Assembly (NCBI GenBank): GCA_002710685.1
Contig: PALD01000069.1
Span: 1-64,000, forward strand
From: Cytophagaceae bacterium
Lineage (GTDB): Bacteria; Bacteroidota; Bacteroidia; Flavobacteriales; Flavobacteriaceae
Length of the DNA: 64,000 nucleotides
Reading direction: 5' to 3'
Of this stretch, positions 867 to 18,855 are shown piece after piece (position 1 is the stretch's first letter; every line of letters starts with the position of its first letter). The notes under the pieces were generated by a model. The model saw only the letters and a list, made by a program, of their open reading frames with translations. It was not told where the DNA came from and made no database searches. Made by a program: the position numbers and the translations under genes.

Positions 867-867
867 T

Positions 868-905: not shown

Positions 906-907
906 GA

Positions 908-1264
<357 letters not shown>

Positions 1265-1282
1265 GTAAAGATTTAAGTGGTC

Positions 1283-1303
1283 ATGCTGAATTTAATTCAG
1301 CAT
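1283..1303. repeat. Perfect 21-bp palindrome after cas2
   Basis: ATGCTGAATT, a single T, then AATTCAGCAT form a perfect 10-bp stem 18 bp after the cas2 stop. No T-run follows directly, so it looks more like a dispersed palindromic repeat than an intrinsic terminator, although it could protect the 3' end of the cas mRNA. Confidence 0.5.
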
Positions 1304-1395
1304 CCCATTACAGGGTGACAGAATAAAAAATATGATAGCTCCCACAATTAACACCTATTTATATCGTCCATTTTTTTATTTCCAATATATGGTAT

Positions 1396-1434
1396 AAAAA
1401 ACAGGATACCAGTGATTTATGTCAGGTATCCTGT
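1396..1434 (-). terminator. Intrinsic terminator for leftward array transcription
   Basis: On the minus strand ACAGGATACC (1434-1425) pairs perfectly with GGTATCCTGT (1410-1401) across a 14-nt loop and is followed at once by TTTTT. The right arm of the DNA palindrome uses the first five bases of repeat 1 (CCTGT). This is the layout of a terminator that would stop a CRISPR transcript coming from the array before it runs into cas2 antisense. Confidence 0.55.
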
Positions 1435-4400
1435 GAATCATCTACTAAAGTAGTATTCTGAAAGCAATTCACAACATTGTGTATGGCAGTGATAACCGCT
1501 TAGGTCCTGTGAATCATCTACTAAAGTAGTATTCTGAAAGCAATTCACAACTATTGGATTTGCCGTATTTTTGAACAGGTACCTGTGAATCATCTACTAA
1601 AGTAGTATTCTGAAAGCAATTCACAACCCATTAAGGCGTTACCATGCGGTGCGAGTTCCTGTGAATCATCTACTAAAGTAGTATTCTGAAAGCAATTCAC
1701 AACTATTGAACCTTGAGAAAGGGGACGGGGCATCCTGTGAATCATCTACTAAAGTAGTATTCTGAAAGCAATTCACAACTTTTAAAGGGATAAGGCCAAG
1801 GCTTGAGCCCCTGTGAATCATCTACTAAAGTAGTATTCTGAAAGCAATTCACAACTTGGTAGGATTAATCCTAAAGGGAAGGTTACCTGTGAATCATCTA
1901 CTAAAGTAGTATTCTGAAAGCAATTCACAACTCTAGCGTAAGATTCATCGAAAGATTTTTGCCTGTGAATCATCTACTAAAGTAGTATTCTGAAAGCAAT
2001 TCACAACCAGCTTTAACTTGCCGTTATTGCCCTCAACCCTGTGAATCATCTACTAAAGTAGTATTCTGAAAGCAATTCACAACGCCCGTGTTTTCGTCAC
2101 TGGCCAAGGTTTTCCTGTGAATCATCTACTAAAGTAGTATTCTGAAAGCAATTCACAACAAAGTGAGCACCCATGAAACACCAATACCTCCTGTGAATCA
2201 TCTACTAAAGTAGTATTCTGAAAGCAATTCACAACCCACATGGCAGGATATATGGCATGTGGCGCCCTGTGAATCATCTACTAAAGTAGTATTCTGAAAG
2301 CAATTCACAACAATCTGAGCATCCGCCCACTCCAGGTACTCCCTGTGAATCATCTACTAAAGTAGTATTCTGAAAGCAATTCACAACTGTCTATATTCAA
2401 TCAAATACAGGCCAAACCTGTGAATCATCTACTAAAGTAGTATTCTGAAAGCAATTCACAACTTCAATGGGTATGGGAGCTGGTCTTACTTCCCTGTGAA
2501 TCATCTACTAAAGTAGTATTCTGAAAGCAATTCACAACGGCATCATCGCCCGTATCATTATGCAATGACCTGTGAATCATCTACTAAAGTAGTATTCTGA
2601 AAGCAATTCACAACTAGGGAAGTATTTGCCACAGCCTTCACATACCTGTGAATCATCTACTAAAGTAGTATTCTGAAAGCAATTCACAACTCTCAATGCC
2701 TTTTTCCCGTTTCCACTTGGCCTGTGAATCATCTACTAAAGTAGTATTCTGAAAGCAATTCACAACACAGCCGTCACTACGAATGCTAGTAGTGACCTGT
2801 GAATCATCTACTAAAGTAGTATTCTGAAAGCAATTCACAACCAAAATCACTCGCCCAGATGGGCATTAACTCCTGTGAATCATCTACTAAAGTAGTATTC
2901 TGAAAGCAATTCACAACTAGTTCCAGCTGCATTTCTAGCTGCCCATTCCTGTGAATCATCTACTAAAGTAGTATTCTGAAAGCAATTCACAACTGCAAAG
3001 AGCCCTTAACCTGATGAATCGCACCTGTGAATCATCTACTAAAGTAGTATTCTGAAAGCAATTCACAACTATTACAGATAGTGAAGCTTATGATTTCTAC
3101 CTGTGAATCATCTACTAAAGTAGTATTCTGAAAGCAATTCACAACACTGCGTATGACAGTGATAACCGCTTAGGTCCTGTGAATCATCTACTAAAGTAGT
3201 ATTCTGAAAGCAATTCACAACCTTCGGTTACAGTAATTTTTACTAACACCACCTGTGAATCATCTACTAAAGTAGTATTCTGAAAGCAATTCACAACTGA
3301 GAAACTGCCATTAAAGAAACTGCCCATCCTGTGAATCATCTACTAAAGTAGTATTCTGAAAGCAATTCACAACAGCATGAATTGCAGGGGATCTTCATTG
3401 ATCCCTGTGAATCATCTACTAAAGTAGTATTCTGAAAGCAATTCACAACAATAGCGGTTTGCTCCAGGCCAGCACGTCCCCTGTGAATCATCTACTAAAG
3501 TAGTATTCTGAAAGCAATTCACAACGCAAGGAGCTGTACTATGCCATAGAGAAAACCTGTGAATCATCTACTAAAGTAGTATTCTGAAAGCAATTCACAA
3601 CGTGTCGTTAAAAAGGAATGAAAAACCTTTTCCTGTGAATCATCTACTAAAGTAGTATTCTGAAAGCAATTCACAACTATCTCTTCGATGGGGAGCGTTG
3701 ACGGCACCCTGTGAATCATCTACTAAAGTAGTATTCTGAAAGCAATTCACAACTATTGATACGCCCGTATGCCAGAGCACCGTCCTGTGAATCATCTACT
3801 AAAGTAGTATTCTGAAAGCAATTCACAACGCAATTGAAGATTTGGGGATTACCATAAAACCTGTGAATCATCTACTAAAGTAGTATTCTGAAAGCAATTC
3901 ACAACGTATGATAACGGTATTCAAGGTTAGCGAACCCTGTGAATCATCTACTAAAGTAGTATTTTGAAAGCAATTCACAACAAGGAAGCAGTTAGCAATG
4001 AATACTTTGAACCTGTGAATCATCTACTAAAGTAGTATTCTGAAAGCAATTCACAACAGTGGGCCTTTGCAATATTTAATACCATTCCCTGTGAATCATC
4101 TACTAAAGTAGTATTCTGAAAGCAATTCACAACACTAGAACCAAAATTTTCCGTATCGACTGCCTGTGAATCATCTACTAAAGTAGTATTCTGAAAGCAA
4201 TTCACAACTAATGCTTGCTTATTTCTGTACCGTGGGTACCTGTGAATCATCTACTAAAGTAGTATTCTGAAAGCAATTCACAACTTCAAAGATGGAAAAC
4301 ATGAACACGAGTACCTGTGAATCATCTACTAAAGTAGTATTCTGAAAGCAATTCACAACTTCAGGGGTGAAACCTTTTTGCATCAGCTCCCTGTGAATCA

Positions 4401-4499
4401 TCTACTAAAGTAGTATTCTGAAAGCAATTCACAACTATTTCGTCACGCTCTTGCTCCGTTTGCTCCCTGTGAATCATCTACTAAAGTAGTATTCTGAAA
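1430..4499 (-). CRISPR. Type II-C CRISPR array, 40 full repeats plus one truncated, 40 spacers
   Basis: The repeat is 46 bp, on the plus strand starting CCTGTGAATCATCTACTAAA and ending TGAAAGCAATTCACAAC, with an inner palindrome CTACTAAAGTAG. Starts run from 1430 at a 76-bp period (four steps of 75). Spacers are 30 bp, but spacers 13, 18, 36 and 38 are 29 bp. All repeats are identical except repeat 34 (3936), which has T for C near 3973, and the last (4466-4499), which keeps only its first 34 bp. The polarity of known II-C repeats (GTTGTG...GCTTTC first) and the terminator at 1396-1434 point to transcription on the minus strand. Repeat decay at the right end suggests the oldest spacers are there and that acquisition took place next to cas2. 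Spacers 1 and 23 are near-identical. Confidence 0.98.
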
Positions 4500-5222
4500 C
4501 CTCTTTAAAAAACCTTTGATCAAGAAATTCTCACGGCTTGTTGCCTATACCAGCGAGAATTCATGTCCAAACCTCAAGGTGCAGCGCAGTTAAAGCAATT
4601 TACAACAAAGGATTAATGAGCGCACTGAAACTGTCTGTGAATCATCTATTATGGTGTTATTGGGCAAGAGGAATATGCTTGGTATGCTTTGCCTGGGCTC
4701 AGCGTACGGCTTGTGGTTTCTTTTTACATGTGGCCTATTTGGGTTTTGGCTTTGCTCATGGGGTGGTGGTCTTTTCGCTTTAAGCGAGATAAAATATGGG
4801 AGATAAGCGGGTGCAAGCAAGCTGTAGATAAGATGTGCGGGCGCACTTTATCATAATAAAGGCACAAAATAACTGTTTTACAATAAATTAAGACTACCTT
4901 TGACGCATTATAGTGAAAGGCAAAACAGTATAGTGGACGTTCTTTCGCGCTTTTACGGAAACAACAATAGATCATGTTGTCTTAAAAATCCGGGAATCAC
5001 AAGGTAAGTGGTCGTATTATTTTTTAGGATTGTTCTTCACTCTTTTACGGTAGTCTTCTTTCTTTTTCTTCTTTTTCTCTCTTCTTGAGATAATGTCTTT
5101 GACCTTATGGCTCCATTGCCACGGTTATCGTTGATTTTCAGAAAAAATGGATTATCAATACTATTATTATGAATTTAATTACAAGAATCAAGGACATATT
5201 TGTCCCAGTAAAAATCAGTACT
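4500..5222. other. Gene-poor stretch right of the array, with decayed repeat pieces
   Basis: I see no convincing protein gene; the open frames here are short and have no family signature. It holds the missing right half of a repeat (4592-4606), a degraded left half (4634-4664), an AT-rich stretch, a TTTTCGCTTTAAGCGAGA palindrome at 4772-4789, and the upstream region of the cold-shock gene. On the minus strand about 5020-5115 a frame reads VKDIISRREKKKKKKEDYRK and ends in a stop, but it has no start codon. It may be the tail of a lost gene. Confidence 0.5.
4566..4665 (+). ncRNA. Candidate tracrRNA or decayed repeat unit
   Basis: AAAGCAATTTACAAC (4592-4606) is complementary to the first 15 nt of the crRNA repeat, with one G-U wobble and no mismatch. 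It is followed by AAAGGATTAAT, which resembles the AAGGATTAT nexus start of Bacteroidota II-C tracrRNAs as I remember them. At 4634 a degraded repeat start follows (TCTGTGAATCATCTA). The sequence therefore fits a tracrRNA transcribed rightward, divergent from the array, and it also fits an eroded last repeat unit. I found no clear promoter or terminator, so the extent is a guess. Confidence 0.35.
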
Positions 5223-5414
5223 ATGAAAAAAGGAACCGTTAAATTTTTCAACAATACCAAAGGCTTTGGCTTTATCCAGTCTAATGAGACCAGCGAAGAG
5301 ATATTTGTTCACTCCAGTGGATTGATTGACGATGTAAGGGAAAATGATGAGGTGGAATATGAAACCACTCCCGGTAAAAAGGGATTGAATGCCATCAATG
5401 TGCGACTGGCCTAA
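5223..5414 (+). CDS. Cold-shock domain protein (CspA family)
   Basis: A 63-residue single-domain RNA/DNA chaperone with a five-stranded OB fold. RNP1 is seen as KGFGFIQ and RNP2 as EIFVHSSGL, after the typical opening MKKGTVKFFNNTKGFGFI. Such proteins melt mRNA secondary structure and often antiterminate transcription. The frame stays open upstream to an ATG at 5169, which would add 18 residues with no family match. I chose 5223 because it gives the standard length and N terminus. A strong terminator follows at once, so the gene is monocistronic. Confidence 0.9.
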   Translation: MKKGTVKFFNNTKGFGFIQSNETSEEIFVHSSGLIDDVRENDEVEYETTPGKKGLNAINVRLA

Positions 5415-5438
5415 AAGACCGGTTTGTTTACAGTATAA

Positions 5439-5466
5439 GGGCCATCGAGAGATGGCCCTTTTTTTA
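5439..5466 (+). terminator. Intrinsic terminator of the cold-shock gene
   Basis: GGGCCATC (5439-5446), loop GAGA, GATGGCCC (5451-5458), then a run of seven T. A perfect 8-bp GC-rich stem starting 24 bp after the stop codon. Confidence 0.9.
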
Positions 5467-5816
5467 TTTTATGGCTTTCGCCAAAATATTAACGTGCTGT
5501 TTTAAATAGGGAAGCCTGTGAAATGTCATGGAGTGTGCCCTCCTGAAAGCCATATTATGTATTTGCGCCCCGGCTTTGCTCAGCGGGCGGCTCCTGCATT
5601 TTTTATGTATGTAATTTTAATGAAGGCCTGGTTTTATTGCTCGTCTTTACACTTTACATGCAATACAATTTTAAGGTGTACAAGGTTGCAAGGCTGTTGC
5701 AAGATGGCCTTTCTAAATATCAATACGGGCATTGCAGGGACTTTATAGTATATCGTATTATGAAAAAGAAATAGGATATTTACACGGTTATAATTGCACT
5801 TTTTACATTTTAAGGC
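5467..5816. other. Intergenic stretch with a CRISPR-repeat-like relic
   Basis: No gene is supported. At 5473-5486 lies an exact copy of the recurring 14-mer GGCTTTCGCCAAAA. From 5515 a 46-bp segment matches the CRISPR repeat in phase at both ends (CCTGTGAA and CTGAAAGC) but not in the middle, and a GC-rich segment with GCTCAGCG follows 63 bp after its start. The final 80 bp are AT-rich and probably carry the promoter of the XRE regulator. Confidence 0.45.
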
Positions 5817-6398
5817 ATGGAAGATTATATTATAGGAATAGGAAAGAGAATTCGTGAGATAAGGAAGGAAAAAAACCTCACCATCAACACGGTTGCTACT
5901 GATGCTGAAGTAAGTAACGGCCTTATATCACGGGTGGAGAATGGCCGTACCATACCCTCATTGCCCGTACTTCTCAATATAATTAATGCGCTTGAGGTAG
6001 AGGTTGCCACTTTTTTCAATAGCTTGCCAGCCTCTGGCAAGGTTCCCTTTGTGGTATCTCGTGCTGCCGAAAACAGTGTCATAGAAAAGGAAATCGAGGC
6101 AAAGGGCCTTGAGTACAAATATATCTTTGGCAAATCACTATCTTCAATTGCTTTTGAGGCCGTGCTCCTTGAGATACAGCCCGGCTCTCAACGTGATAAA
6201 GTGGAAACCGATGCCTATGAATTTAAATACATGCTAAGTGGGCAATGTGTGTATGTCATAGGTGATGAAGAAGTCACCCTCTATGAAGGCGACTCGATTT
6301 TCTTTGATGGCCGTATTCCCCATGTTCCCGAAAACCGGGGAACACAACCCACAAAAATGCTGGTGCTTTATTTTTTTATAAAGAATGCTGAAGGATAG
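5817..6398 (+). CDS. XRE-cupin transcriptional regulator
   Basis: A 193-residue two-domain regulator. Residues about 8-63 form an XRE/lambda-repressor helix-turn-helix (IGKRIREIRKEKNLTINTVA, then SNGLISRVENGRTIPSL). Residues about 110-188 form a small cupin sensor (IQPGSQRD, then GDSIFFDGRIPHVPENRG). Regulators of this build (PuuR and MmsR-like) commonly sense small amines, polyamines or related metabolites and control the neighbouring catabolic genes. Its 3' end faces the 3' end of the leftward phosphonate-type gene set (24-bp gap), so it is the obvious candidate regulator of that locus. The ligand is unknown. Confidence 0.85.
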   Translation: MEDYIIGIGKRIREIRKEKNLTINTVATDAEVSNGLISRVENGRTIPSLPVLLNIINALEVEVATFFNSLPASGKVPFVVSRAAENSVIEKEIEAKGLEYKYIFGKSLSSIAFEAVLLEIQPGSQRDKVETDAYEFKYMLSGQCVYVIGDEEVTLYEGDSIFFDGRIPHVPENRGTQPTKMLVLYFFIKNAEG

Positions 6399-6422
6399 GG
6401 TAACGCTTTCGCGAAATTATCG

Positions 6423-7106
6423 TTATTTCAATATATACGATTCAAGGTCAGTAAGTTTATCCAGGATAAGGTCTGGTTGTGCGAGAGCCAGTTGGGCACG
6501 GTCTTGGGCGCCGCTAAGTACGGCAACCGTAAGGCCACAACATGCATTTTTGCCTTCTTCAATATCAATTTCTGAATCTCCCGCCTTTACGACCTGTTTT
6601 GCGTCAGTAATGTTGAATTTTTTCATGGCCAGCTCTATCATTTCTGGATGAGGACGCCCTCGTTCAACATCGTCTGCAGTGATTAAAGCATCAATATCGC
6701 GGCCTACTTGCCAGTCTAGTTTATCGAGTAGTTTATTTGCCGTTTTTGCATCATAACCCGTATTGAGCACCACGCGGATGCCATTGTGCCTTAGCGTGGA
6801 GAAGAAGGTATCCATTTTGGCGAAAGCCTTAATGGGAAATTTATCATAGGCAGCTTCTAGCTCTACCTTAAAATTGGCAAACGCCTCATCTGCCAATTGT
6901 CCACTGTTTTTTGCATCTGTACAATTTGTGAGAACATCTGTGATGGCCTTGTGTTTTTCTTTTCCGGCCCCGTGGAAGAGCACTTCCTCAAGCGAGACAT
7001 CAAACCCCAGGCCATTGATGCATTTTTGCACCGTCTTATACACTAGGTTATCTTCATTTACAGTGGTTCCCGCCATATCAAAGACGGCCAGTTTAATAGT
7101 ATTCAT
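6423..7106 (-). CDS. PhnX-like phosphonatase family HAD hydrolase
   Basis: A 227-residue HAD-superfamily enzyme close to phosphonoacetaldehyde hydrolase, which splits the C-P bond of phosphonoacetaldehyde into acetaldehyde and phosphate (TIGR03351 type). Motif I is FDMAGTTV with the nucleophile Asp10, and motif III/IV acidic residues are in KAGDSEIDIEEGKNA. In the cap region Lys49 of GAGKEKH lines up by eye with the Schiff-base lysine of PhnX (GLLKIDH), which would support true phosphonatase chemistry; this alignment needs checking. It is the last gene of the leftward set, 5 bp after the FAD oxidoreductase, which in this family pairing is thought to supply its substrate. Confidence 0.85.
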   Translation of the reverse strand: MNTIKLAVFDMAGTTVNEDNLVYKTVQKCINGLGFDVSLEEVLFHGAGKEKHKAITDVLTNCTDAKNSGQLADEAFANFKVELEAAYDKFPIKAFAKMDTFFSTLRHNGIRVVLNTGYDAKTANKLLDKLDWQVGRDIDALITADDVERGRPHPEMIELAMKKFNITDAKQVVKAGDSEIDIEEGKNACCGLTVAVLSGAQDRAQLALAQPDLILDKLTDLESYILK

Positions 7107-7111
7107 AAAAA

Positions 7112-8266
7112 TTATTTAAGTAATCTTGTAATATTTTCTTTAGAAAAACCCGCGCTTCCCGTCATGCCCTTGCCACCTATACCGGTTATGATGTGTATAT
7201 CTTTGTCAATGGTTTTTTGAAAGATGTCACTGTTCTTGCACTGGGCGTATATACCGTACCAGCGGTCCTGGATTTCATACGTGGGTAGGTCTATTATTTT
7301 TTTTGCTTCGGCAATCATAAAGTTGTCAATATCCATGTTGAGCTCATAATCCAGGCTGTCAGCATCTTTTGCATCTGCATACTCATGAGAATCCCCCAGG
7401 ATTACAGAGCCGTCAACGGCCTGCTTAAAGAGGATGTGCACACTCCATTTTTTTTGTTGGCTTTGTGGGTCTTCTTTTGCCTTGATTTCTTTAAATGAGG
7501 GGCACTCGTAAAAAGCCTCGTACCTGCGGATTGACCAACCTGTGAGAATTGACCCAGGAAGCCTGTATCCTGCTTGTGGCCGGGTTCTCAACATTTGTAG
7601 TTTTGAGATTTCAAGGTCGCTCTGCGCAAAATAACCGGGATATAGCGTCTTAAAATCACTACCGTTACAGATGATTACCTTGGTGGCGACATGTTTTACC
7701 TGGTCTGCGGTGACGACTTCAACACCGGTGGGGGTTTTCTCGGTATGAATGGCCTTTGTGTTGTATAGCACCGTTAACCCTTTATTCTCAATAAGGTATT
7801 GCTGCAGCTTATGGATCATGGTGCGCGGCTCTACCGTGATTTCATCAGGAAAGAAAAGCCCCGCTTGAATATAATCTTGGCGCAAGCCGGGATATTTATC
7901 CAGGCATTGCTTTTTAGTAAGAAGAGTTGAGGTGTAGTCGTTATGCCTGTTGATTGTGTGCAATTCTTCAATCAACCGTACTTCATCTTCATTAGAAGCT
8001 AGATATACTGAGCCATTTTGCCTCACCGTGATGTCAAACTGTTGCTGGATGGCCTTGTACAAGCGGAGGCTCTCTCGACCATAATTTTGCCATTTTGTGT
8101 TCATCCCAGAGGGGACCACCTGTCCAAAATTTCTTGTCGTGGCACTTTGGGGTTTGAGGTCCTGCTCCAGCAACAAGACCTTGAGGCCAGCACTGATTGC
8201 ATGATACGCATGAAAACTGCCCAAGATGCCACCACCTATGACGATAAGATCAAATTTTTTGCTCAT
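7112..8266 (-). CDS. FAD-dependent oxidoreductase, phosphonate-associated (TIGR03364 type)
   Basis: A 384-residue DAO-family flavoenzyme. The N-terminal dinucleotide-binding motif is FDLIVIGGGILGSFHAYHA (GxGxxG variant), followed by LLLEQDLKPQSATTRNFGQV. The C-terminal FAD contact is the TGIGGKGMTGS loop. Proteins of this clade sit next to TIGR03351 HAD hydrolases. From memory, characterised members oxidatively deaminate aminoethylphosphonate or its N-methyl form to phosphonoacetaldehyde, making hydrogen peroxide. That fits the PhnX-like gene 5 bp downstream. Its start overlaps the end of the DUF5690 gene by 17 bp, so the two are probably translationally coupled. The substrate is inferred, not shown. 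Confidence 0.85.
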   Translation of the reverse strand: MSKKFDLIVIGGGILGSFHAYHAISAGLKVLLLEQDLKPQSATTRNFGQVVPSGMNTKWQNYGRESLRLYKAIQQQFDITVRQNGSVYLASNEDEVRLIEELHTINRHNDYTSTLLTKKQCLDKYPGLRQDYIQAGLFFPDEITVEPRTMIHKLQQYLIENKGLTVLYNTKAIHTEKTPTGVEVVTADQVKHVATKVIICNGSDFKTLYPGYFAQSDLEISKLQMLRTRPQAGYRLPGSILTGWSIRRYEAFYECPSFKEIKAKEDPQSQQKKWSVHILFKQAVDGSVILGDSHEYADAKDADSLDYELNMDIDNFMIAEAKKIIDLPTYEIQDRWYGIYAQCKNSDIFQKTIDKDIHIITGIGGKGMTGSAGFSKENITRLLK

Positions 8267-9533
8267 GAGAAATGGGTTTGAAATGCATGGAATGATGTTT
8301 TTTCTTAAGTTGAAAATATGAGATGATGACTATGATTGACCCAAAAACCGCCAATCCATACGCACCGTTGATAAAGAAGCGAAGCCATGAAATCTGGCTC
8401 ATGCCAAAATTTTTATAAAGCAATACCGTCATGCTCCCCAGATATCCAAATGCATCAGCCAGGTAAATGAGAAAACCTGCATTACCGTTTATACGGAAGG
8501 CGGCGATAAACCTATCAAAAAACAAGGCATTGAACGGGACGTAACATATATAGAGCCCAAAGCCCGTGATAACCATCCATAAAAAGGGACTTAAGAGTTG
8601 TGCTTGCAATAAAAAAGTTGCTAATCCAAGAGATAAAGTGCCAATCAATAAAATCCCATGATAGGTCAACAGTGCCTTGAGGTTATCTTTTACCGCATAA
8701 ACAGTTCCCAGGATGATCAATACAAGTATGGCCACAAAGATTTCAGAAGAACTATACACCGAAATATCTCCTACATAACCCAGGGAATCCCAAAGCTCCC
8801 GGGCATAATTGTCCCTTAAATCCCTAAATGCCGTAAGAGCCGTGTAGAAAGCAATAAGCAGTGTGAGCGGCATCAAGAAGCGCTTGATGACGCTGCGCCT
8901 TTCCCTCTTGTTCATGGGTAGGCGCTCTACCCTCAGCTCCTTATCTTCTTCAGTGGGTGCAGGTATGGTCTCTAACAAATAGGCAAAAAACAGCAACGGT
9001 AAAATAAAAAGTGCGCCGGTTACTGCCGGCATCCAGAATTGTGAAACACCCCACGTTGCCATGGTAAACAAACCTATGGATTTTACAACCCCACTAGATA
9101 CAATAAAACTAGTGCATAGAAGTACACCCATGATCTCGGTAAACTTGCGGCCTTCAAGGTAAGAAAAAACTATACCCCATATCATACCCAGGGGTAAGCC
9201 ATTGAAGAACATGAATATACAGTTGTAAGGCGTAGGTGTGGTCGCAAAGCATATCAGGGAAATTTCGGCAACGGATATTAGCCCTAAAAGATAGGTGAGC
9301 CTTTGACTGGTCTTTAATTCACTAATGATCTTGACCCCTATACACTTTGAAAGCATATACCCCAGGACCTGCGCTATTATCAACACTATTTTATAATCTA
9401 TCCCCCATAGCTCAAGGTCATCAAATGTAGCTACGGCAAAAGGTTTCCTGAAGGCATACATACAGAAATATGTACCAAATGCCGCTAGGGAGGCCCTGCT
9501 TATAAGTCTTAAGTCGTTAGTCCTGATTTTCAT
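8250..9533 (-). CDS. DUF5690 family permease, MFS/organophosphate-antiporter-like
   Basis: A 427-residue polytopic membrane protein with about 12 hydrophobic segments. The start YFCMYAFRKPFAV followed by GYMLSKCIGVKIISE resembles the TM1-TM2 signature of the organophosphate:phosphate antiporters (GlpT, UhpT), where the Arg helps bind phosphate. I infer transport of a phosphonate or phosphate ester across the inner membrane, supported by the neighbouring oxidoreductase and phosphonatase genes. Family members are annotated only as DUF5690. The stop overlaps the next start. A 142-bp gap upstream could hold its own promoter. Confidence 0.75.
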   Translation of the reverse strand: MKIRTNDLRLISRASLAAFGTYFCMYAFRKPFAVATFDDLELWGIDYKIVLIIAQVLGYMLSKCIGVKIISELKTSQRLTYLLGLISVAEISLICFATTPTPYNCIFMFFNGLPLGMIWGIVFSYLEGRKFTEIMGVLLCTSFIVSSGVVKSIGLFTMATWGVSQFWMPAVTGALFILPLLFFAYLLETIPAPTEEDKELRVERLPMNKRERRSVIKRFLMPLTLLIAFYTALTAFRDLRDNYARELWDSLGYVGDISVYSSSEIFVAILVLIILGTVYAVKDNLKALLTYHGILLIGTLSLGLATFLLQAQLLSPFLWMVITGFGLYICYVPFNALFFDRFIAAFRINGNAGFLIYLADAFGYLGSMTVLLYKNFGMSQISWLRFFINGAYGLAVFGSIIVIISYFQLKKKHHSMHFKPISHEQKI

Positions 9534-9675
9534 GCTGAAGAATAAACCAGCTGAGAAAATTTGGCGTCCCAGCCGGTTTCAATAAATCTAAATACTCTCT
9601 TTTAATGATAAACAAATATGAAGATATATTTACAAATAGTAAAAATTAAAAACAAATTATTTACTTATTGTAAAA

Positions 9676-10725
9676 TTATTTTAAGATGCTCATTATACGT
9701 TCAGCAACTGATGTGGTGTGTAACTGTTCTTCTTGAGTTGCTTCTCCCATTTTTTTAGCCTGAGCTCCCAGAACTATCATCCAGGTTTGATCAGCCCCTT
9801 GTATATTGTTGCCATGGCTTCTCCAGGTATCCAGGGGCTGCGTACCACGACCATGGTCTGTGGTAAGTATAATGGTGGTTTTATCCTTATAGTAAGGATC
9901 TGACTGAACAAAATACCAGAGTTCTTTTAAGAACGCATCAGCATCATGCGCAGCATTGAGGTATTTGTCATATTTGCCCTGATGTGCAAAATCATCAGTT
10001 TCATCATTTGCAATATATACCATATCAGGATGCTGCTGTTTCATATATTCTAGTGCATAATAGTCAGTAAACACATCCAGGCGTGCAGAATTTCCAAATG
10101 GGCTTGGTGTCTTTTCTTCCATCCTGTTGATGAGCTTCTCACTGTAACTGGCCTTGCTTTGCTGGTTATCTACATAGCCGGCATTAACATGAACACCGCT
10201 GCGCTTATCATTGATGATGTATGGAAAAACATCCCAACTGGCAAATGCCACAACTTTGTCTTTGTACCTGGGCATTTGGTTTAACTTTTCCAGGATGGTT
10301 GTATTGGGATTGTAGATTTTGTCATTGCTCGTGATGTTCTTGTCATCTGCCTTACCGGTAAGGATTTCATTATAGCCCGGATAAGAGAACCACATACCAT
10401 TGGTAAGGTTGAACTTGCTACCTTTTTCACGGTTACCATGAATTTCTCCCACCCCTATACCTTCGGTCCAGATGAACGGCATCAAGGTTTCACGACGTTC
10501 TTGAGCAGATTCTTTCCAGAATTGTTGTTTTAAGGCCGTTGTGTCTTCTACATATTTTTCATTTGTGATCAACTGCGCATCAGCACCGGTAAAAAGTTCT
10601 TGCCAGCGGTAGCCATCTAGGGTCATGAGGATGACCTTTTGGTCATTTTTTGATTGAGCCTGTACTGTTTTGCTTTTGGCGAAAGCCATAAAAATTAGAA
10701 TAAGGCAAAGGATTGATTTTTTCAT
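9676..10725 (-). CDS. Secreted alkaline-phosphatase-superfamily hydrolase
   Basis: A 349-residue protein with a signal peptide (MKKSILCLILIFMAFAKSKTVQAQ). The AlkP/phosphodiesterase fold is seen in VILMTLDGYRWQELFTGAD (first metal Asp and likely nucleophile Thr), DETDDFAHQGKYD, and the metal pair TTDHGRG and SHG. Related enzymes hydrolyse phosphodiesters, phosphoesters, sulfates or phosphonoacetate in the periplasm. In this locus it could free aminoethylphosphonate from a lipid or glycan imported by SusCD; this role is inference. The 200-bp gap to SusD and 142-bp gap to the permease suggest a separate or internal transcript. The recurring 14-mer lies in its signal-peptide codons (10674-10687). 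Confidence 0.75.
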   Translation of the reverse strand: MKKSILCLILIFMAFAKSKTVQAQSKNDQKVILMTLDGYRWQELFTGADAQLITNEKYVEDTTALKQQFWKESAQERRETLMPFIWTEGIGVGEIHGNREKGSKFNLTNGMWFSYPGYNEILTGKADDKNITSNDKIYNPNTTILEKLNQMPRYKDKVVAFASWDVFPYIINDKRSGVHVNAGYVDNQQSKASYSEKLINRMEEKTPSPFGNSARLDVFTDYYALEYMKQQHPDMVYIANDETDDFAHQGKYDKYLNAAHDADAFLKELWYFVQSDPYYKDKTTIILTTDHGRGTQPLDTWRSHGNNIQGADQTWMIVLGAQAKKMGEATQEEQLHTTSVAERIMSILK

Positions 10726-10926
10726 TTTAAGTATGGTGTTGCGTTATTTTTTAAAGTATTTTTTAATAATGTCAAAAGCTTTTATATACCCACCCTCAAT
10801 CAATTATCAAGGGCAGGCATAATTTAAGCATATTGCTGGTGGAGTTTTACAACCGAGGCCATAATCAGAAAAATCCATTATGTTCTCTCCCGTTTCATTT
10901 TCATTTTGATCTATATGGAGAAGGTC

Positions 10927-12426
10927 TTAATCTATCAACCACATTTTTGCATTAATATCATCAGAGCCACCATATTGTGATGATAGTGCCGCATTGATGT
11001 TTGCATCATTGTTTTGGAATTCGCTTTGAGGATATTTCCACCTATTGGGTATCCTGCCCCCATTATTGTTTGATGGTCCCACATCAAATGTGGGGATACC
11101 CGTCCTACGATAGTTGAAGTAGGATTCCCTAGCAGAATTATTAAAAAAAGCGATATACTTCTGGGTCAGGATTTGCTTTAATGCCTGTGTACCGTTTGTT
11201 GTGTTATATGTTATATCATCCATGGAGAGATAGCTGTCAATAGCTGCCTGCTCCACTCCATAAAATTGCATTGAAGCAGTGATACCGGCATTATAATGTG
11301 AGGCTGCAGAGCCGCTTACCCAACCCCTGTTGATGGCCTCGGCAATGGTAAATTCCTGCTCAGCATAGCTCATAAGGATGTATGGCTCGCCAGTATAATC
11401 ATTATAATAACGCTCTTCGCTGGGGTAGGAGAGTTGTCCATTGTCTGATGCTACCTGCAATGGTCCCTGTTCCGCACCGGTTTCAGCACCCACATAGGCA
11501 TTGAGGTCCATGGGGTTATTGGCATCATACAACGCGGCGGCAGGGTCAGCTATGATATAAATCCTGGGGTCGTTTCTTTCTTTTAATAGATCTAGAAAAG
11601 TGGCCCCCATGATATTACGGTTACGGTTAAAGCCATAGTTGCCAGGATTAAAGACATAAAAGTTGTTCTGCTCATTACCATACACACGTTGCATATTATC
11701 CGCATTGCTTTCAAAAAGCGGATAGGTGCTGGGATTGTTGATGATTTCCTGAAAACGGGCAGGAACATTGAGCGCTGATGCCTTCTGGCTCAAGTTTATC
11801 AAGACCCTTAAATAAAAGGAGTTGATTGCCTTTTGCCATTTTGATAAATCCCCGTTGTAGAGGAAATCACCTTCTAGGTCGCCTGTTTCCACTTCTGTCA
11901 TAGCCGTAGTGATTAGAGTATTGGCTTCTTTTAACCACTCTAGGATTTTTGCATAGACTTCTTCTTGATTATCGTAGGCTGGCTCTTGAATGCTGTTTTC
12001 GCCCTCAGCCATGAGAGATTCATCAAGGGGTATATCTCCCACGCGCCTGGTCATATAATCATAGTAGTAAGCCTTAAGGAAAAGGGCAATGGCATTATAT
12101 TTATTCTCTGTTGATAGTCCAGCTGCCTCTTCAGCCATGGCGTTGATGTTTGCAAGCGTGTCATATTTATAATCAATCTCGCCCCAGTTATAATCCTGGT
12201 CACCATAATAATCAAATGAAATCACCCAGAACTGGTTATCTCTCTGGGCTTCGCTCCATGGGCCTTCATCATCTGCCATTTCTTTTAATACACCGGCAAG
12301 TAACATGGATGGGGGGACGCTTGTAGCCGAGTTAGGGTCGTTTTCCAACTCGTCAAAAGGTGTACATGAGACAGCAAGAACGAGTGTCATCATGATTGAC
12401 CAAAAGGTTATCGTAAACTTTTTCAT
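10927..12426 (-). CDS. SusD/RagB family outer-membrane lipoprotein (SusD-like_2)
   Basis: A 499-residue surface lipoprotein that forms the lid of a SusC barrel and captures the substrate. The signal peptide ends in the lipobox LAVSC (Cys21). The TPR-like helical body is typical of SusD-like_2 proteins, which accept sugars as well as peptides and other solutes. It follows SusC by 10 bp, so the two are co-transcribed. Nothing in the sequence identifies a sugar ligand, and no glycoside hydrolase lies in this set; the neighbouring enzymes point to a phosphorus-bearing ligand. Confidence 0.9.
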   Translation of the reverse strand: MKKFTITFWSIMMTLVLAVSCTPFDELENDPNSATSVPPSMLLAGVLKEMADDEGPWSEAQRDNQFWVISFDYYGDQDYNWGEIDYKYDTLANINAMAEEAAGLSTENKYNAIALFLKAYYYDYMTRRVGDIPLDESLMAEGENSIQEPAYDNQEEVYAKILEWLKEANTLITTAMTEVETGDLEGDFLYNGDLSKWQKAINSFYLRVLINLSQKASALNVPARFQEIINNPSTYPLFESNADNMQRVYGNEQNNFYVFNPGNYGFNRNRNIMGATFLDLLKERNDPRIYIIADPAAALYDANNPMDLNAYVGAETGAEQGPLQVASDNGQLSYPSEERYYNDYTGEPYILMSYAEQEFTIAEAINRGWVSGSAASHYNAGITASMQFYGVEQAAIDSYLSMDDITYNTTNGTQALKQILTQKYIAFFNNSARESYFNYRRTGIPTFDVGPSNNNGGRIPNRWKYPQSEFQNNDANINAALSSQYGGSDDINAKMWLID

Positions 12427-12436
12427 TGCTTGTATT

Positions 12437-15400
12437 TTAGAATTTGATATTTAGGTTGATACCATAACTTTTTACGGTAGGTGTTTGTAGTGGTGATGAG
12501 CTTTCATCAACAAACTGGTCAAGATCAATATTCTTGTTCTTTGAGAAATAGATCAAATCCCTGCCCACAAATGAAACAGACGCTTGATTGATGAATATGT
12601 CCTCTAGCATGCTTTGTGGAAAATTATAGGTCAACGTCAATTCACGTAGCTTAAAGAATGTCTTGTCGATAAGGTTTGCCGCTACCTGCCCGTGATAGGA
12701 TTTTGCATAATCCTGATAATAGATTGCAGTGGTATTAGGCGAGAATGTCCGGGTGTCAGAAATCACATTGCCCTCACCATCCCTGATGAGTTCTCCACCG
12801 CTTACGACCACACCTTCAACAATATATGATTTTACTCCTTGAACATCGTTAGCCCTTTCTGGGGTGTCACTATCTGGATGCCTACCACTTTGCCATAGTT
12901 TTTGATTGACGTAATTGTTGATTTTTCCTCCATAGCGCCCATCAAAAGTAAAATTGAGTGTCCAGTTTTTATAGGTGAGGGCATTACGGATTCCCGCGGC
13001 CCAGTCTGGCGTCCTGTATCCTGCAAGCCTTTGATAAGGGTCAACCACAGGTTTGCCATCATCACCCACGATGAGCTGACCATCGCTTGTTCTCATGAAG
13101 TCATTGATGTAATACGGGTCGTAGCGGTCACCTACATTGATTCTTCCTATATTGTTGATAGTCTCGCCGCTGGTATTATCAGTATATACTTTTTCTAGAA
13201 ATTCCTTGTATGTAGACCAGTTGATACCTATGTTCCATTCAAAATTGTCATTGCGCACGGGCGTAACATCAAGTGCAACCTCAAACCCCTTTGTCTTTGT
13301 GGTGATCCCATTTTCTTTTTTACCAGAATATCCACTTGCCAGCGAATAGTTAAGGTTGAATATACCAGGGCCGTTCTTGTTTTCATAATATGTGGCATTG
13401 ATACCTAGGCGATTGCTAAAAAGATTTGATTCTAGACCAAACTCTGTTGAAGAGTTATATGCAGGTTCTAAATTGGGATTTGACAGGATGCTGTTGACAT
13501 AGGCCCAGTTATACGTCCTGCCCCCTATGGTAAATGGGGAACCCAGGTTATATGTGTCCTGATTGCTGTAAATACTGGTAAGTGATGTTCCTACTTTTGC
13601 ATATGAAGCCCGCAGCTTGAGAAAGTTCACTTCTTTAGGCATGTTAAAAATGCTGCTCATCACACCACTTAGAGCAACTGATGGATAGAAAAAAGCATTG
13701 TTGCCACTGGGCAGTCTCGAGTCTTTCTCGTAGCGTCCCGTAAGGCCTAGATACACATAATCTTTGTACGATAAATCCGCGGAAGCGTAACCGCTATAGG
13801 TTTCATAATGTGTGCGGTAATTATTGGGCTGTACCGGTGTTTGAGAATTGCTCAAAGTATACAGGCCCGGTACAATGAGATAGTCAGTTGATGCATACAG
13901 GTATTTTGTCTTGTTTATATCAAGGTTTGCCCCTATAAGTGCTTTGATACCAAAATCACCAAAATCATTCTCATAGTTCAACATTACGTCTGAGTAGCTT
14001 TTCAGGCTATAATCGTGTTGTTCTTTATAGTCACCTTGAGCTTTTTCCCTGCCGTATGTAGTTGCTGAGTAAGGAAATTTTTCATCTTGAATAAGGTTGC
14101 TTACGGCCACGTTAGAGCGCAACACGACATTAAATTTGTCTGTAAATCTGTGCGTAAGGCTCAACTGTCCTGTATAGTCATTCTTGTAATATCCCCTTAA
14201 CCATTCGTAGGCCATGAAGTAGGGGTTGTTATATCGGGTATATTCAAAATTTACCTGTTGTAGGCCTTCTTTACCTTCTTGCCAGTAGTCTCTTAAATCC
14301 CTGATATCCCAGTCTGCACCCCCCCATATAAGTATGTTATAGATATAACTGTTGGGGCCATATTGTACATTGGGATTGTTTGGAGACGTTTGAAAATTGA
14401 AGTTTGTGTATCCATTGACTTCTGTCTTGTCGCTAAATTTGAAATTTCCCGATAGGTTGTAGTTGAAGATATTGAGGCGAGTATTAGGGTTGATACCTTT
14501 TTGATAGGTATGTGATGTTGAAAACCTGATGTTGCCCTTGTCAAAATTAGAAGCCACGGTGAGGTTGTTTGTCTCAAGAAAACCGTTTTCCATAAAATTG
14601 GTAAAGTTATCCTTACCCCTTGCTAGCCATGGAGTGGGGATCCTGTTTCCTTCTGCGTCAAGCGGACTATCATATTGAGGAATAAGTTGCCCCTCAAACC
14701 TTGGTCCCCATTGATCATAATCAGCATCATTGATACCACCACCTTTACCATCAACAAAGGCATAGTTGCCATATGAACCCGGGCCATAAGAACTCTGTAC
14801 TTCTGGGATGGCATTATAGCCTGCCTGGAGTATAGAGCTGTTATTGTATTCAATCACAAAACCCCTTCCATTGCCAGTTCCTCTTTTTGTGGTGATCTGT
14901 ATGGCTCCATTTGCACCATCAGCACCATAAAGCGCTGCCGCGTTAGCACCTTTTAACACGGTTACCGTTTCAATATCATCTGGACTTATGTTATAGCTAT
15001 CAGTGCCCAAGGGAACACCATCTACCACAATGAGCGGTCTTTTGCCCCGTAAGGAAATATTGGGCATTTTAAAAAACTCTGGACTTTGTGCGATGATTAG
15101 ACCAGAGACTTTACCTGAAAGACTGTTCACAAAGTTTACGTCCCTAGCTTTATTGAGCTCACCATCAACTTCCTGTACGGAGTAGCCTATACGTTTCTTT
15201 TCTTTCTTGATGCCCAGGGCGGTAATGACCACTTCATCAAGACCTTCAGCATCTTCTTGAAGAATGACTTCTATGGTGGTCTTACCTGTAATATCAACTT
15301 CCTGGGTCGTAAAACCCACAAAACTGATTGTCAAAAGCTGATTGTCAGAAGGAACTGATAGGGAGAAGTTGCCTTCAAAATCTGTTATCGTACCAATGCT

Positions 15401-15544
15401 GGTCCCCTTGACCATCACCGTCGCACCAGGTAAGGGAAGTGAATTGACATCAAGTACCTTTCCTTTTACCGAATTTTCCTGCCCATGAAGCAGGCTAGAA
15501 AAAAGACAGAAACACAGTAATGTTATCTGGTAGATTGTTTTCAT
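12437..15544 (-). CDS. SusC/RagA family TonB-linked outer-membrane transporter
   Basis: A 1035-residue TonB-dependent barrel. In order: signal peptide (residues 1-21), a CarboxypepD_reg-like domain (about 25-100, GKVLDVNSLPLPGATVMVKG), the plug with the SusC signature (LRGKRPLIVVDGVPL, then ETVTVLKGANAAALYGADGA), and the beta-barrel ending in YGINLNIKF. It imports ligands handed over by the SusD lid, powered by TonB. It is the first gene of the leftward set. No anti-sigma/ECF pair lies beside it, so control probably depends on the XRE-cupin regulator at the far end or on phosphate status. Confidence 0.92.
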   Translation of the reverse strand: MKTIYQITLLCFCLFSSLLHGQENSVKGKVLDVNSLPLPGATVMVKGTSIGTITDFEGNFSLSVPSDNQLLTISFVGFTTQEVDITGKTTIEVILQEDAEGLDEVVITALGIKKEKKRIGYSVQEVDGELNKARDVNFVNSLSGKVSGLIIAQSPEFFKMPNISLRGKRPLIVVDGVPLGTDSYNISPDDIETVTVLKGANAAALYGADGANGAIQITTKRGTGNGRGFVIEYNNSSILQAGYNAIPEVQSSYGPGSYGNYAFVDGKGGGINDADYDQWGPRFEGQLIPQYDSPLDAEGNRIPTPWLARGKDNFTNFMENGFLETNNLTVASNFDKGNIRFSTSHTYQKGINPNTRLNIFNYNLSGNFKFSDKTEVNGYTNFNFQTSPNNPNVQYGPNSYIYNILIWGGADWDIRDLRDYWQEGKEGLQQVNFEYTRYNNPYFMAYEWLRGYYKNDYTGQLSLTHRFTDKFNVVLRSNVAVSNLIQDEKFPYSATTYGREKAQGDYKEQHDYSLKSYSDVMLNYENDFGDFGIKALIGANLDINKTKYLYASTDYLIVPGLYTLSNSQTPVQPNNYRTHYETYSGYASADLSYKDYVYLGLTGRYEKDSRLPSGNNAFFYPSVALSGVMSSIFNMPKEVNFLKLRASYAKVGTSLTSIYSNQDTYNLGSPFTIGGRTYNWAYVNSILSNPNLEPAYNSSTEFGLESNLFSNRLGINATYYENKNGPGIFNLNYSLASGYSGKKENGITTKTKGFEVALDVTPVRNDNFEWNIGINWSTYKEFLEKVYTDNTSGETINNIGRINVGDRYDPYYINDFMRTSDGQLIVGDDGKPVVDPYQRLAGYRTPDWAAGIRNALTYKNWTLNFTFDGRYGGKINNYVNQKLWQSGRHPDSDTPERANDVQGVKSYIVEGVVVSGGELIRDGEGNVISDTRTFSPNTTAIYYQDYAKSYHGQVAANLIDKTFFKLRELTLTYNFPQSMLEDIFINQASVSFVGRDLIYFSKNKNIDLDQFVDESSSPLQTPTVKSYGINLNIKF

Positions 15545-16111
15545 TAGTGATTGAATGTTTATTAATAGTAAATTTTATACCACAAAATAAATCATATATT
15601 CACTATATGTAAACTTTTGAAATTTAAGAAATCATTAATCATTTTAATTTAAAATGGGGGTTATAACGATTTCTTAGAGGTAAAAAAGGGATTTCTTAAC
15701 AATTAATTGAGATTTAAAATACATCAGGTATACGTGCAAAATTGAGGTGACGCTCGGGAGCTCCTTAAAATATTTAGTAAAACCGGGGCTATCCAGAAAT
15801 TCAAAGCAGTAAAAGAGTTGGCTTTCGCCAAAAAACATCAATCTTTATTCCGCTTCTAATTATTTTTAATAGCATCAATGAGCGATCTAAATAATAAAAT
15901 CAGCGTCCAACTGCTTTGTTATCTTAAAGATACGGGGCGTGTGGCCCTTTGGCGTAAGCCAAAGGCATTGAGTTGGAATTTTATGTTCTATTATACCGGA
16001 AGTGTTCTTTATCAATACCCATGGGAATCATACATATTCACAGAGGCACAATATGTAGGTCATGATTCATAAGGAACATGGTCATGAAACCTTAATCCCT
16101 ATGTCAACGTA
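15545..16111. other. Intergenic stretch between susC and the efflux operon
   Basis: The left half is the susC control region (AT-rich). At 15820-15833 is an exact copy of the 14-mer GGCTTTCGCCAAAA. At 15946-15965 a perfect 8-bp hairpin (CCTTTGGC-GTAA-GCCAAAGG) is present. A 64-codon frame at 15878-16072 spans this hairpin, has no recognisable features and is not called as a gene. Confidence 0.5.
15593..15609. promoter_or_regulatory. Inverted repeat upstream of susC, possible operator
   Basis: CATATA (15593-15598), spacer TTCAC, TATATG (15604-15609) lies 49 bp before the susC start in an AT-rich control region. A dimeric regulator such as the XRE-cupin protein could bind it. I did not find an equally good copy upstream of the regulator gene itself. 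Confidence 0.3.
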
Positions 16112-17500
16112 TTAAAACTGGGTGGTCAGTTTAAGGAGCGAGGCCATGCTCTTGACATATTTAACGGCCAGGCTTATCTCCTTGATACGTGCTGAGATAT
16201 AATAGTTTTCCCTACTGTTTACCAGGAATAATGAACTGTCTCCCAGTTCAAACTTTCGACGTTCTGCGGTCACAAGGGAGGCATAATCCTCCACCAGGGC
16301 ACCCATCTTTTCCCCTTGGCTTCTATAAGATACAATCTCGTTTTGCAGGGAGGTCAACTTATTCTTTATTTCCACATTGGCATGGAGCAGGTCATATCTG
16401 GAGTTTTGCAGCTGTATCCTGGCGAGTTGCAGGTCCCCGCGTTCTTTTCGCAAGAACAGGGGTACACTCAGTTTTAACCCAAACTTATAATTATCAGTAT
16501 CGAGTCTTTGCCATTCTTCCGGTTGCTCCATTAAAAAGTTATAGCTTAGGTCAAGGTCTGGTAAAAGCTTGTTGAGCCTTAGTTTACGTTCTACCTCCAT
16601 CATCTGTACATCATATTCCAGTGACCTGATCTTGGGGTTTTGATCTAAAGTGGGTATGGCAAGTATTTCACTTGCTATCCACAAGCTGTTAACCTCGGTG
16701 ATCAGTTCTTGATTGGGCATTACCCGGGGCGTGATTTCCAGGGGGATGTTGTTTTCTGCCCACAGGTAGTTGGATAGTTTAAGGGATGCCTTGAGGTAAT
16801 CCAGTTGAGCCTGCTGCAATGCGATGGCGCGGTTCTCCCTGTTGATGTTTGCCTCCAGGGTGTCCACGGCGGGCTTGTCACCAGCCTCAAATTGCTTGCG
16901 CACGGAGCGTAAGGTAAAATCGGCATTCGCTAAAAAATCCTCGTAAAGGTTCAGTTCTTGAAAAGCGGCATACCACTCAAAGTAGGCCACGGCGGCATCA
17001 TATAGAACCTCGGCCGCCCGGAGGTCCCTTTTCAGTTCTGTTTGCTCCCGGTAGATTTTTGCCTGGCGCAGGGTGGCCATGCGCTCGCTCATGAAGATGC
17101 CATTGGTCACGTCCAGGGTAATCCCGGCAGAATATAGCCCATCTTGGGGCACGGTGTTTTGCGGGTTGAGGTAATAGCCGGAATTTTGTTCATATTTTGC
17201 GTTAAGCTCAAGACCATAGTATGTGGGCACCTTGAAGGCCGCACCAAAAATAGTATAGTATTCAGTGCCCTTGTAGTTTTTTTCAGCAAGGTCTGCCTGA
17301 ACCTTGGGGTCAAACCCTCCACGGGCTTTCATGAGCTTAAAGCTTCCTTCATCAACCACGAGGCCAGCCTGTTTTACCAGGGGGTGATATGTTTTTACGA
17401 TGGCAAGGTACTCCGCAAATTCCAGGTTGAGCGTATCCTGTTCCTGCGCGTGACCCAGTTGTGCCAGGAGGACAATAAGTAATATTACTAGTCTTCTCAT
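16112..17500 (-). CDS. TolC-family outer-membrane efflux protein
   Basis: A 462-residue outer-membrane exit duct of a tripartite exporter. The ATG at 17500 gives a clean signal peptide (MRRLVILLIVLLAQLGHAQ) and overlaps the HlyD stop by four bases (ATGA). The longer open frame to 17575 only adds shadow sequence. The body shows the two repeated OEP halves: long helical segments such as LRAAEVLYDAAVAYFEWYAAFQELNLYEDFL and a second set near IQLQNSRYDLLHANVEIKNKL. It is the last gene of the TetR-ABC-HlyD-TolC operon and presumably works with those proteins only. Confidence 0.9.
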   Translation of the reverse strand: MRRLVILLIVLLAQLGHAQEQDTLNLEFAEYLAIVKTYHPLVKQAGLVVDEGSFKLMKARGGFDPKVQADLAEKNYKGTEYYTIFGAAFKVPTYYGLELNAKYEQNSGYYLNPQNTVPQDGLYSAGITLDVTNGIFMSERMATLRQAKIYREQTELKRDLRAAEVLYDAAVAYFEWYAAFQELNLYEDFLANADFTLRSVRKQFEAGDKPAVDTLEANINRENRAIALQQAQLDYLKASLKLSNYLWAENNIPLEITPRVMPNQELITEVNSLWIASEILAIPTLDQNPKIRSLEYDVQMMEVERKLRLNKLLPDLDLSYNFLMEQPEEWQRLDTDNYKFGLKLSVPLFLRKERGDLQLARIQLQNSRYDLLHANVEIKNKLTSLQNEIVSYRSQGEKMGALVEDYASLVTAERRKFELGDSSLFLVNSRENYYISARIKEISLAVKYVKSMASLLKLTTQF

Positions 17501-18852: not shown

Positions 18853-18855
18853 GAC

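Follow-up and report, generated by a model that had tools for sequence, protein, structure and literature searches.

How might a flavobacterium without a recognisable PhnW transaminase live on aminophosphonates, and what could a SusCD-type outer-membrane gate be doing beside its phosphonate genes? This question is raised by a locus at positions 5817-15544 of a 64,000-nucleotide stretch (hereafter the window) of contig PALD01000069.1 from a Cytophagaceae bacterium placed in the Flavobacteriaceae (assembly GCA_002710685.1), for which an original prediction had proposed a SusCD-fed aminophosphonate utilisation locus. Seven open reading frames (ORFs) were confirmed there, and curated models name the gene families that had been read from them: a SusC-SusD pair, a secreted alkaline phosphatase (AlkP)-type hydrolase, a DUF5690 protein, a TIGR03364-type flavin adenine dinucleotide (FAD)-dependent oxidase, a PhnX-like hydrolase of the haloacid dehalogenase (HAD) type and an XRE-cupin regulator (Table 1). 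Taking gene identities, conserved residues, synteny and palindromes together, we consider it very probable that this is a substrate-controlled, SusCD-linked and PhnW-independent aminophosphonate utilisation locus.

In the model that we infer, in all its substrates and transport directions as well as in the hydrolase substrate and the HAD activity, the SusCD pair would bring an aminophosphonate, free or as an ester, through the outer membrane, and the secreted AlkP-fold hydrolase would liberate the small aminophosphonate. DUF5690, a major facilitator superfamily (MFS) protein resembling the organophosphate:phosphate antiporters (OPA), would then move it across the inner membrane. Inside the cell the TIGR03364 flavoenzyme would convert 2-aminoethylphosphonate (AEP) or N-methyl-AEP (M1AEP) to phosphonoacetaldehyde (PAA) and ammonia or methylamine, so that PhnW would not be needed, and the PhnX-like HAD would cleave PAA to acetaldehyde and phosphate by a Schiff-base route. 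Paired 15-bp palindromes may be the sites through which the XRE-cupin protein governs the promoters of SusC and DUF5690.

The FAD protein passes the curated TIGR03364 cut-off by 136 bits, and the glycines G11, G13 and G16 of GxGxxG, a dinucleotide-binding motif, are invariant in all 23 aligned sequences. PbfD1 of Acinetobacter baumannii is annotated with the same family; according to the available text of that report, PbfC and PbfD enzymes convert M1AEP, and less efficiently AEP, to PAA, and some of them replace PhnW where it is missing (PMC10590968). By analogy with these published relatives, the window enzyme probably oxidises M1AEP or AEP to PAA. That PhnW is not present, as had been predicted, agrees with the search of the own genome, in which PhnW was not found at E ≤ 1e-30, PhnJ at E ≤ 1e-20 or PbfA at E ≤ 1e-60, and in which canonical PhnX was matched best by the locus HAD itself, under the cut-off; the listed contamination of this assembly (8.79%) casts some doubt on presences and absences there. 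Moreover, among the 27 FAD-positive genomes PhnJ was found in none and PhnW exceeded its cut-off in none (two weak matches scored 153 and 163 bits against a cut-off of 400.8). This implies that oxidation is the likeliest entry of AEP into metabolism in these genomes.

In the HAD, residues D10, A12-G13-T14, K51, T116-G117, R151 and D177 are kept in all 25 aligned sequences (the window HAD and 24 of the 43 HADs collected from loci) and are common to three annotated PhnX proteins, two of which were checked against TIGR01422. When the HAD profile was searched against the PDB, PhnX was the best match (2iof, 117.8 bits) and K51 aligned with its K53. In PhnX, K53 forms the Schiff base and acts together with the nucleophilic aspartate. 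As judged from the alignment, the window protein appears to hold both, the nucleophile as D10 in DxAGT and the lysine as K51. It further resembles canonical PhnX in the GRP motif and D177, but it is shorter and lies below the TIGR01422 cut-off; we predict that it is a phosphonoacetaldehyde hydrolase. The FAD and HAD proteins might instead take some other amino compound as substrate, as in an amino-acid or polyamine route, considering that the DAO and HAD superfamilies are broad, that the HAD falls just under the cut-off of its own family and that the XRE-cupin protein is weakly PuuR-like (49 bits, cut-off 211). With the wide TIGR03364 margin, the retained PhnX lysine and the PbfA, PhnW, PhnA, Phn-HD and PhnX genes that neighbour the locus in relatives, we hold this explanation to be very improbable.

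The last of these points comes from loci in which labels were assigned largely by BLAST, with curated-model confirmation at the tested loci named here. The four other Leeuwenhoekiella FAD loci (L055-L058) hold SusC, SusD, a PF01663 phosphodiesterase, PbfA, a purple-acid-phosphatase-like protein, an AlkP homologue, DUF5690, FAD, HAD and a convergent XRE-cupin gene; families were model-tested for L055 and matched by BLAST in the remaining loci, so that PbfA, found in all four, is model-confirmed in L055 (NF049939, 686 bits, cut-off 525). L105 contains PhnW (TIGR02326, 563.8 bits, cut-off 400.8), PbfA (634), DUF5690 and a TIGR03351-type HAD under the cut-off (203.5 bits), and in L099 the FAD gene is found together with PhnW (461), PbfA (656) and PhnA (496, cut-off 407.6). 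PhnW is also found in L096, L076 holds PhnA together with a PhnY-like dehydrogenase that misses its cut-off by 1.7 bits, and L078 has a TIGR03276 Phn-HD exactly at its cut-off (214.6 bits). DUF5690 (45% identical) is followed on a Novosphingobium plasmid by TIGR03364 (413 bits) and then canonical PhnX (344, cut-off 220), and on an Acinetobacter plasmid annotated AEP transport genes precede TIGR03364, PhnW and PhnX. A Hymenobacter plasmid carries SusC, SusD, an AlkP homologue (50% identical), another alkaline-phosphatase-family gene, a PhnX-like HAD in the opposed orientation (165 bits, under the cut-off), XRE and TIGR03364. The idea of a SusCD-linked aminophosphonate locus is thus borne out by PbfA, PhnW, PhnA, PhnY-like, Phn-HD and canonical PhnX genes in relatives. 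In other phyla, pbfA occurs with phnX, according to the available text of PMC12366243.

Instead of AEP or M1AEP, the main substrate could also be a different aminophosphonate, for instance (R)-1-hydroxy-2-aminoethylphosphonate ((R)-HAEP) or phosphonoalanine; the congeners hold PbfA, an enzyme acting on (R)-HAEP. We regard this as unlikely, since the own genome keeps the FAD enzyme without PbfA at E ≤ 1e-60, which makes AEP or M1AEP the likelier substrate here. In L059 (14563-19812) and L067 (14496-17636) the FAD gene is flanked by a DUF5690 member of divergent sequence (38-42% identical), which comes with a separate XRE-cupin gene, and by an HpnZ-like alcohol dehydrogenase (in L059, TIGR03366 320 bits, cut-off 328), perhaps representing another phosphonate route.

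The original prediction had called for a genome survey of the gene order and had named conserved synteny with unrelated catabolic genes as evidence against itself. A FAD gene exceeded the TIGR03364 cut-off in 8 of 60 relatives, in 19 of 249 genomes of the family and in 32 of 395 genomes of the phylum, sets that each include the own genome; of the 12 other genomes of the genus, 4 carry such a gene. The survey set comprised 51 FAD loci besides the window, one of which (L105) lies just under the TIGR03364 cut-off (278.5 vs 285.1), and the named set the best 80 of at least 543 loci. Six loci are common to both sets, so that their counts are not to be summed, and loci do not represent independent events. 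A gene was scored as a neighbour if it reached at least 60 bits in BLAST and lay no more than 11 kb from the FAD gene; generic aldehyde dehydrogenase and class-III aminotransferase matches were not counted as phosphonate markers, and once a PhnY-labelled match in L062 (29%) had been set aside, 27 survey loci remained of the 28 that had scored a marker. As controls we used 40 windows of 20 kb from 15 FAD-positive genomes, with positions spread out by hand and not at random.

Near the FAD gene, DUF5690 was scored in 43/51 survey and 79/80 named loci, HAD in 42/51 and 80/80, XRE-cupin in 35/51 and 77/80, and SusC together with SusD in 27/51 and 40/80. In addition, the named loci contained any TonB receptor in 65/80, an AlkP-, phosphodiesterase (PDE)- or purple acid phosphatase-type hydrolase in 59/80 and PbfA in 13/80 (by BLAST; model-confirmed for L121). 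In the control windows, FAD, DUF5690, HAD and XRE-cupin were each scored in 0/40, any TonB receptor in 4/40 and a PbfA-labelled match in 1/40. SusC together with SusD also occurred in 0/40, and on this count a chance neighbourhood was rejected. The SusC-SusD pair recurs near the FAD gene far above the control level, and synteny with unrelated catabolic genes was not seen in the loci examined.

The SusC and SusD ORFs are separated by 10 bp, and SusC exceeds the TIGR04056 cut-off next to a SusD-family protein, as expected of a SusCD pair. To a SusD tree of 91 rows, 72 locus SusDs and 19 background paralogues from three genomes contributed; the tree was made by a quick method and has long branches. 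The window SusD falls in a clade of 22 rows (Shimodaira-Hasegawa-like approximate likelihood ratio test 100) made up of locus SusDs from Flavobacterium and other families with none of the 19 background paralogues, and three more clades (14, 13 and 19 rows) are likewise free of background, so that 68 of the 72 locus rows lie in four clades. SusDs thus seem to have entered these loci on a few occasions and to have been retained for the most part. Together with the survey counts and the palindromes found at both SusC and DUF5690 (see below), the tree upholds the predicted joining of SusCD to aminophosphonate genes. The SusDs of L055-L058 belong to another of the four clades than the window SusD, which is nearer to Flavobacterium, and the window locus is without the PbfA, PF01663 phosphodiesterase and purple-acid-phosphatase-like genes of these congeners; the gate seems to have been exchanged between them and the enzymes retained.

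In the hydrolase an N-terminal signal peptide was recognised by eye, and residues D37, S114, D244, H248, D290, H291 and H304 are invariant in 11/11 sequences. Its predicted structure is middling (predicted local distance difference test, pLDDT, 73) and matches PafA (5tj3, Z 21.8), ENPP7 (20.4) and a carrageenan sulfatase (20.0), followed by a phosphonate monoester hydrolase (2w8s, 19.3) and PhnA (3szy, 18.8); the top Foldseek rows were sulfatases. A phmmer search against PDB sequences gave 0 matches, and a profile search of the PDB two weak ones. The modelled fold and the presumed metal ligands point to the alkaline phosphatase superfamily, and these fold matches are too close to one another for a choice among phosphatase, phosphodiesterase, sulfatase-like enzyme and phosphonate-ester hydrolase. 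The formylglycine sulfatase motif C/S-x-P-S/A-R, the sulfatase activation motif, was not found at the likely nucleophile stretch (S114), which reads S-Y-P-G-Y in 11/11. We presume that the protein is a phospho- or phosphonoesterase.

Gate and hydrolase could also serve general organophosphate scavenging from phosphate mono- and diesters, as in PUS systems, with the phosphonate enzymes as mere neighbours and aminophosphonates entering via porins. PusCD systems are induced by depletion of inorganic phosphate (Pi) and sit with phosphomonoesterases and PDEs, as the available text describes (PMC8115612); the hydrolase fold is common to phosphatases, phosphodiesterases and sulfatases, and a SusCD pair is not scored at every FAD locus. 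However, the palindrome stands twice before both SusC and DUF5690 in the window, 68 of the 72 locus SusDs group apart from background paralogues, and in L096 and L099, where SusCD was not seen in the stretch fetched, PF01663 phosphodiesterase homologues adjoin PhnW, PbfA, PhnA and PhnY genes. We consider scavenging possible but doubtful. The PF01663 homologues (L096:6886-9351, L099:5239-7695 and L076:2781-5291; 41-43% to that of L055) stand by PhnW, PbfA, PhnA or PhnY genes, and SusCD was not seen in the stretches fetched around them; they hint that phosphonate esters are substrates more widely.

DUF5690 was found in 29 of 296 phylum genomes, the own included, and 20 of the 29 genes, that of the window among them, have a FAD, HAD, PbfA, PhnW, Phn-HD or HpnZ match within 1.5 kb. 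In L249 the order is PbfA, DUF5690 and PhnW, and in L247 DUF5690, PhnW and the beginning of a PhnX gene, which is truncated where the locus ends and scores 117.5 bits on the first third of TIGR01422. The predicted structure is that of an MFS protein (pLDDT 90.7), matched best by two entries of SLC37A4/G6PT (Z 34.4, root-mean-square deviation 3.1 over 362 aligned residues, and 32.3), which we take to be an OPA family member; other MFS families follow from Z 31.7 down, a modest margin. R29-K30, presumably the equivalent of the OPA arginine, is invariant in 39/39 sequences (the window and 38 of 81). In Pseudomonas putida, the GlpT-related MFS permease AepP is needed for growth on AEP as nitrogen source, according to the available text of PMC8316502. 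DUF5690 is like AepP an MFS permease related in its predicted fold to organophosphate antiporters and linked to AEP use, but it is a separate Pfam family with 28 bits on the OPA model TIGR00881. An AEP permease is our best guess for DUF5690, because of its gene neighbours, its OPA-like model fold and the AepP precedent. The members in L233, L250, L252, L255 and L256 have no phosphonate neighbour within 1.5 kb; in L233, L250 and L252 the N-terminal motif deviates in a shared way (IFGFRKSFTV), and these proteins may have another transport substrate.

When the 350 bp upstream of operons were searched for inverted repeats, TTTAC-N5-GTAAA was found in 48 of 107 operon regions (46 of 104 after removal of duplicates), 13 of 101 XRE-cupin regions and 1 of 447 control regions, and in 79, 19 and 24 of these, respectively, with at most one mismatch; the control regions were drawn without restriction to intergenic DNA, and the operon regions are AT-rich (27% GC). 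As the commonest dyad of the same shape reached 5/107 in shuffled regions and the exact palindrome occurred in a single control, a general promoter element was rejected. With up to one mismatch, the palindrome precedes 44/47 operons beginning with DUF5690, 22/23 with a lone TonB receptor and 3/3 with FAD, and 2/16 with other first genes; a second copy is mostly 41 bp off, about four helical turns. In the window the two exact copies (0.05 expected) both lie upstream of DUF5690, with starts 31 bp apart, and 8 copies with at most one mismatch (3.03 expected) include two before SusC and four elsewhere. An exact pair (gap of 14-30 bases) occurs at three places in 38 genomes, each immediately before DUF5690 in a FAD locus, and the refined palindrome TTTACWAWTWGTAAA has 1 copy in the 40 control windows vs 43/80 named loci. 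The XRE-cupin gene is missing in three of the 80 named loci, whose operon regions hold no exact palindrome and, in two cases, one with a single mismatch. We predict that the XRE-cupin protein binds the palindrome.

Several observations weigh against the reading of the window as a regulated SusCD-linked aminophosphonate locus. The FAD gene is patchy, being missing from 8/12 same-genus genomes, and SusC together with SusD was not scored in 24/51 survey and 40/80 named FAD loci, some of which have a lone TonB receptor. In the SusD tree 4/72 locus rows fall outside the four clades: those of L169, L065 and L182 are each paired with background rows, and the fourth is a remote second SusD of L183. 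The HAD is 1.1 bits short of the TIGR03351 cut-off (residues 4-222 of 227 aligned) and clearly under that of TIGR01422 (93.1 vs 220). Nine of the 29 DUF5690 genes are without a phosphonate neighbour of the kinds scored; the protein is far under the OPA cut-off (28.2 vs 407.75 bits), its profile gave 0 matches in the PDB, and hhalign against an OPA-like protein of a phosphonate cluster gave a probability of 1.5, that is, no similarity. As for the palindrome, copies with at most one mismatch precede 8/18 SusC-first operons and were not found upstream of the window XRE gene, and the exact pair is missing from 24/27 FAD-positive genomes. A single exact palindrome occurs at 14 places in the own genome vs 11 for the backward pattern; with exact copies in 7/40 control windows vs 48/80 named loci, it was rejected as a genome-wide marker.

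Whether the captured substrate is bound to a polymer or a lipid, as had been suggested, can be said less firmly. Our judgement is evenly balanced on a joint reading in which such loci form a dedicated Bacteroidota regulon for esterified aminophosphonates (phosphonolipids, phosphonoglycans). As parts of that reading, SusCD would take the ester and secreted phosphonoesterases would yield AEP or M1AEP; DUF5690 would be a new aminophosphonate permease family and the TIGR03351-type HADs a second phosphonatase family; the XRE-cupin protein and the 15-bp palindrome would act as substrate sensor; and phosphonate would be imported across both membranes without an ABC importer.

Two known systems stand close to the locus. 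As in the PbfD/PhnX pathway (Zangelmi 2023, PMC10590968, as far as its available text goes), an FAD oxidase of the same curated family as PbfD1 would give PAA without PhnW, with a phosphonatase last; the window differs in having a PhnX-like HAD in place of canonical PhnX and, in addition, SusCD, the secreted hydrolase and DUF5690. The main text of PMC10590968 contains none of the terms Bacteroid-, TonB and outer membrane. PusCD clusters of Flavobacterium are stated to be co-localised with phosphonate-degrading enzymes (Lidbury 2020, PMC8115612), in a main text whose available part contains no 'phn' gene name. The window SusCD is likewise co-localised with a presumed phosphoesterase and with phosphonate enzymes, whereas PusCD is defined by Pi-depletion induction and the window has predicted XRE-cupin and palindrome control. 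The novelty claimed for joining SusCD to phosphonate genes thus holds in part: the link itself is hinted at in PMC8115612, and our literature search found no paper on this gene order, DUF5690 or the palindrome; nor were DUF5690 and the TIGR03351-type HADs named by those labels in any paper found. By analogy, and with good support from context, the locus may be described as a variant PbfD/PhnX pathway coupled to a PusCD-like gate.

Table 1. Genes and predicted operator sites of the locus, in window coordinates.
Feature	Position	Strand	Model support or remark
SusC-type TonB-dependent outer-membrane transporter	12437..15544	-	TIGR04056 547 bits, cut-off 368
SusD-type outer-membrane lipoprotein	10927..12426	-	PF12771 261 bits, cut-off 27
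Secreted alkaline-phosphatase-superfamily hydrolase, presumed phospho-/phosphonoesterase	9676..10725	-	PF01676 29.0 bits, cut-off 24.3
Palindrome TTTAC-N5-GTAAA, two exact copies, predicted operators of DUF5690-FAD-HAD	9629-9643 and 9660-9674		
DUF5690, predicted inner-membrane aminophosphonate permease (MFS, OPA-like fold)	8250..9533	-	PF18943 553 bits, cut-off 25
TIGR03364 (PbfD-type) FAD-dependent oxidase	7112..8266	-	421.5 bits, cut-off 285.1
PhnX-like HAD hydrolase, predicted phosphonoacetaldehyde hydrolase	6423..7106	-	TIGR03351 217.8 bits, cut-off 218.9
XRE-cupin transcription regulator, convergent with the six others	5817..6398	+	HTH_3 and Cupin_2
Two one-mismatch palindrome copies before SusC	15558-15572 and 15599-15613		Spacing 41 bp

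The genes had been described as read in one direction, which is true of the six on the minus strand but not of the XRE-cupin gene. The 142-bp gap between the hydrolase and DUF5690 genes (9534-9675) contains operator-like sites, so that the six-gene block may have two promoters. On the XRE-cupin side of the locus (132-5817), cas1-like (132-866) and cas2-like (911-1264) ORFs were named by eye; between them and the XRE-cupin gene, from 1427 on, runs a CRISPR-like array with 41 copies spaced 75-76 nt apart. Past the SusC promoter the locus adjoins a minus-strand set resembling a TolC-HlyD-ABC exporter, with a TetR-like gene (16112-21201, named by eye).

For the biology of these bacteria, the locus points to aminophosphonate uptake by way of an outer-membrane gate that is associated more with sugars. 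The gene set recurs in other Bacteroidota by known phosphonate-degrading enzymes, so that its transporter and regulator are directly testable; indeed, each step of the model is open to test by assays of purified proteins or by deletion of single genes. It offers a predicted function for DUF5690 and the TIGR03351-type HADs, and the predicted operator would mark part of the regulon in raw sequence. PhnW-independent aminophosphonate breakdown would thereby be extended to Flavobacteriaceae and other Bacteroidota and, if esters are indeed the substrates, the locus would show how bacteria gain access to aminophosphonates bound in lipids and polymers.

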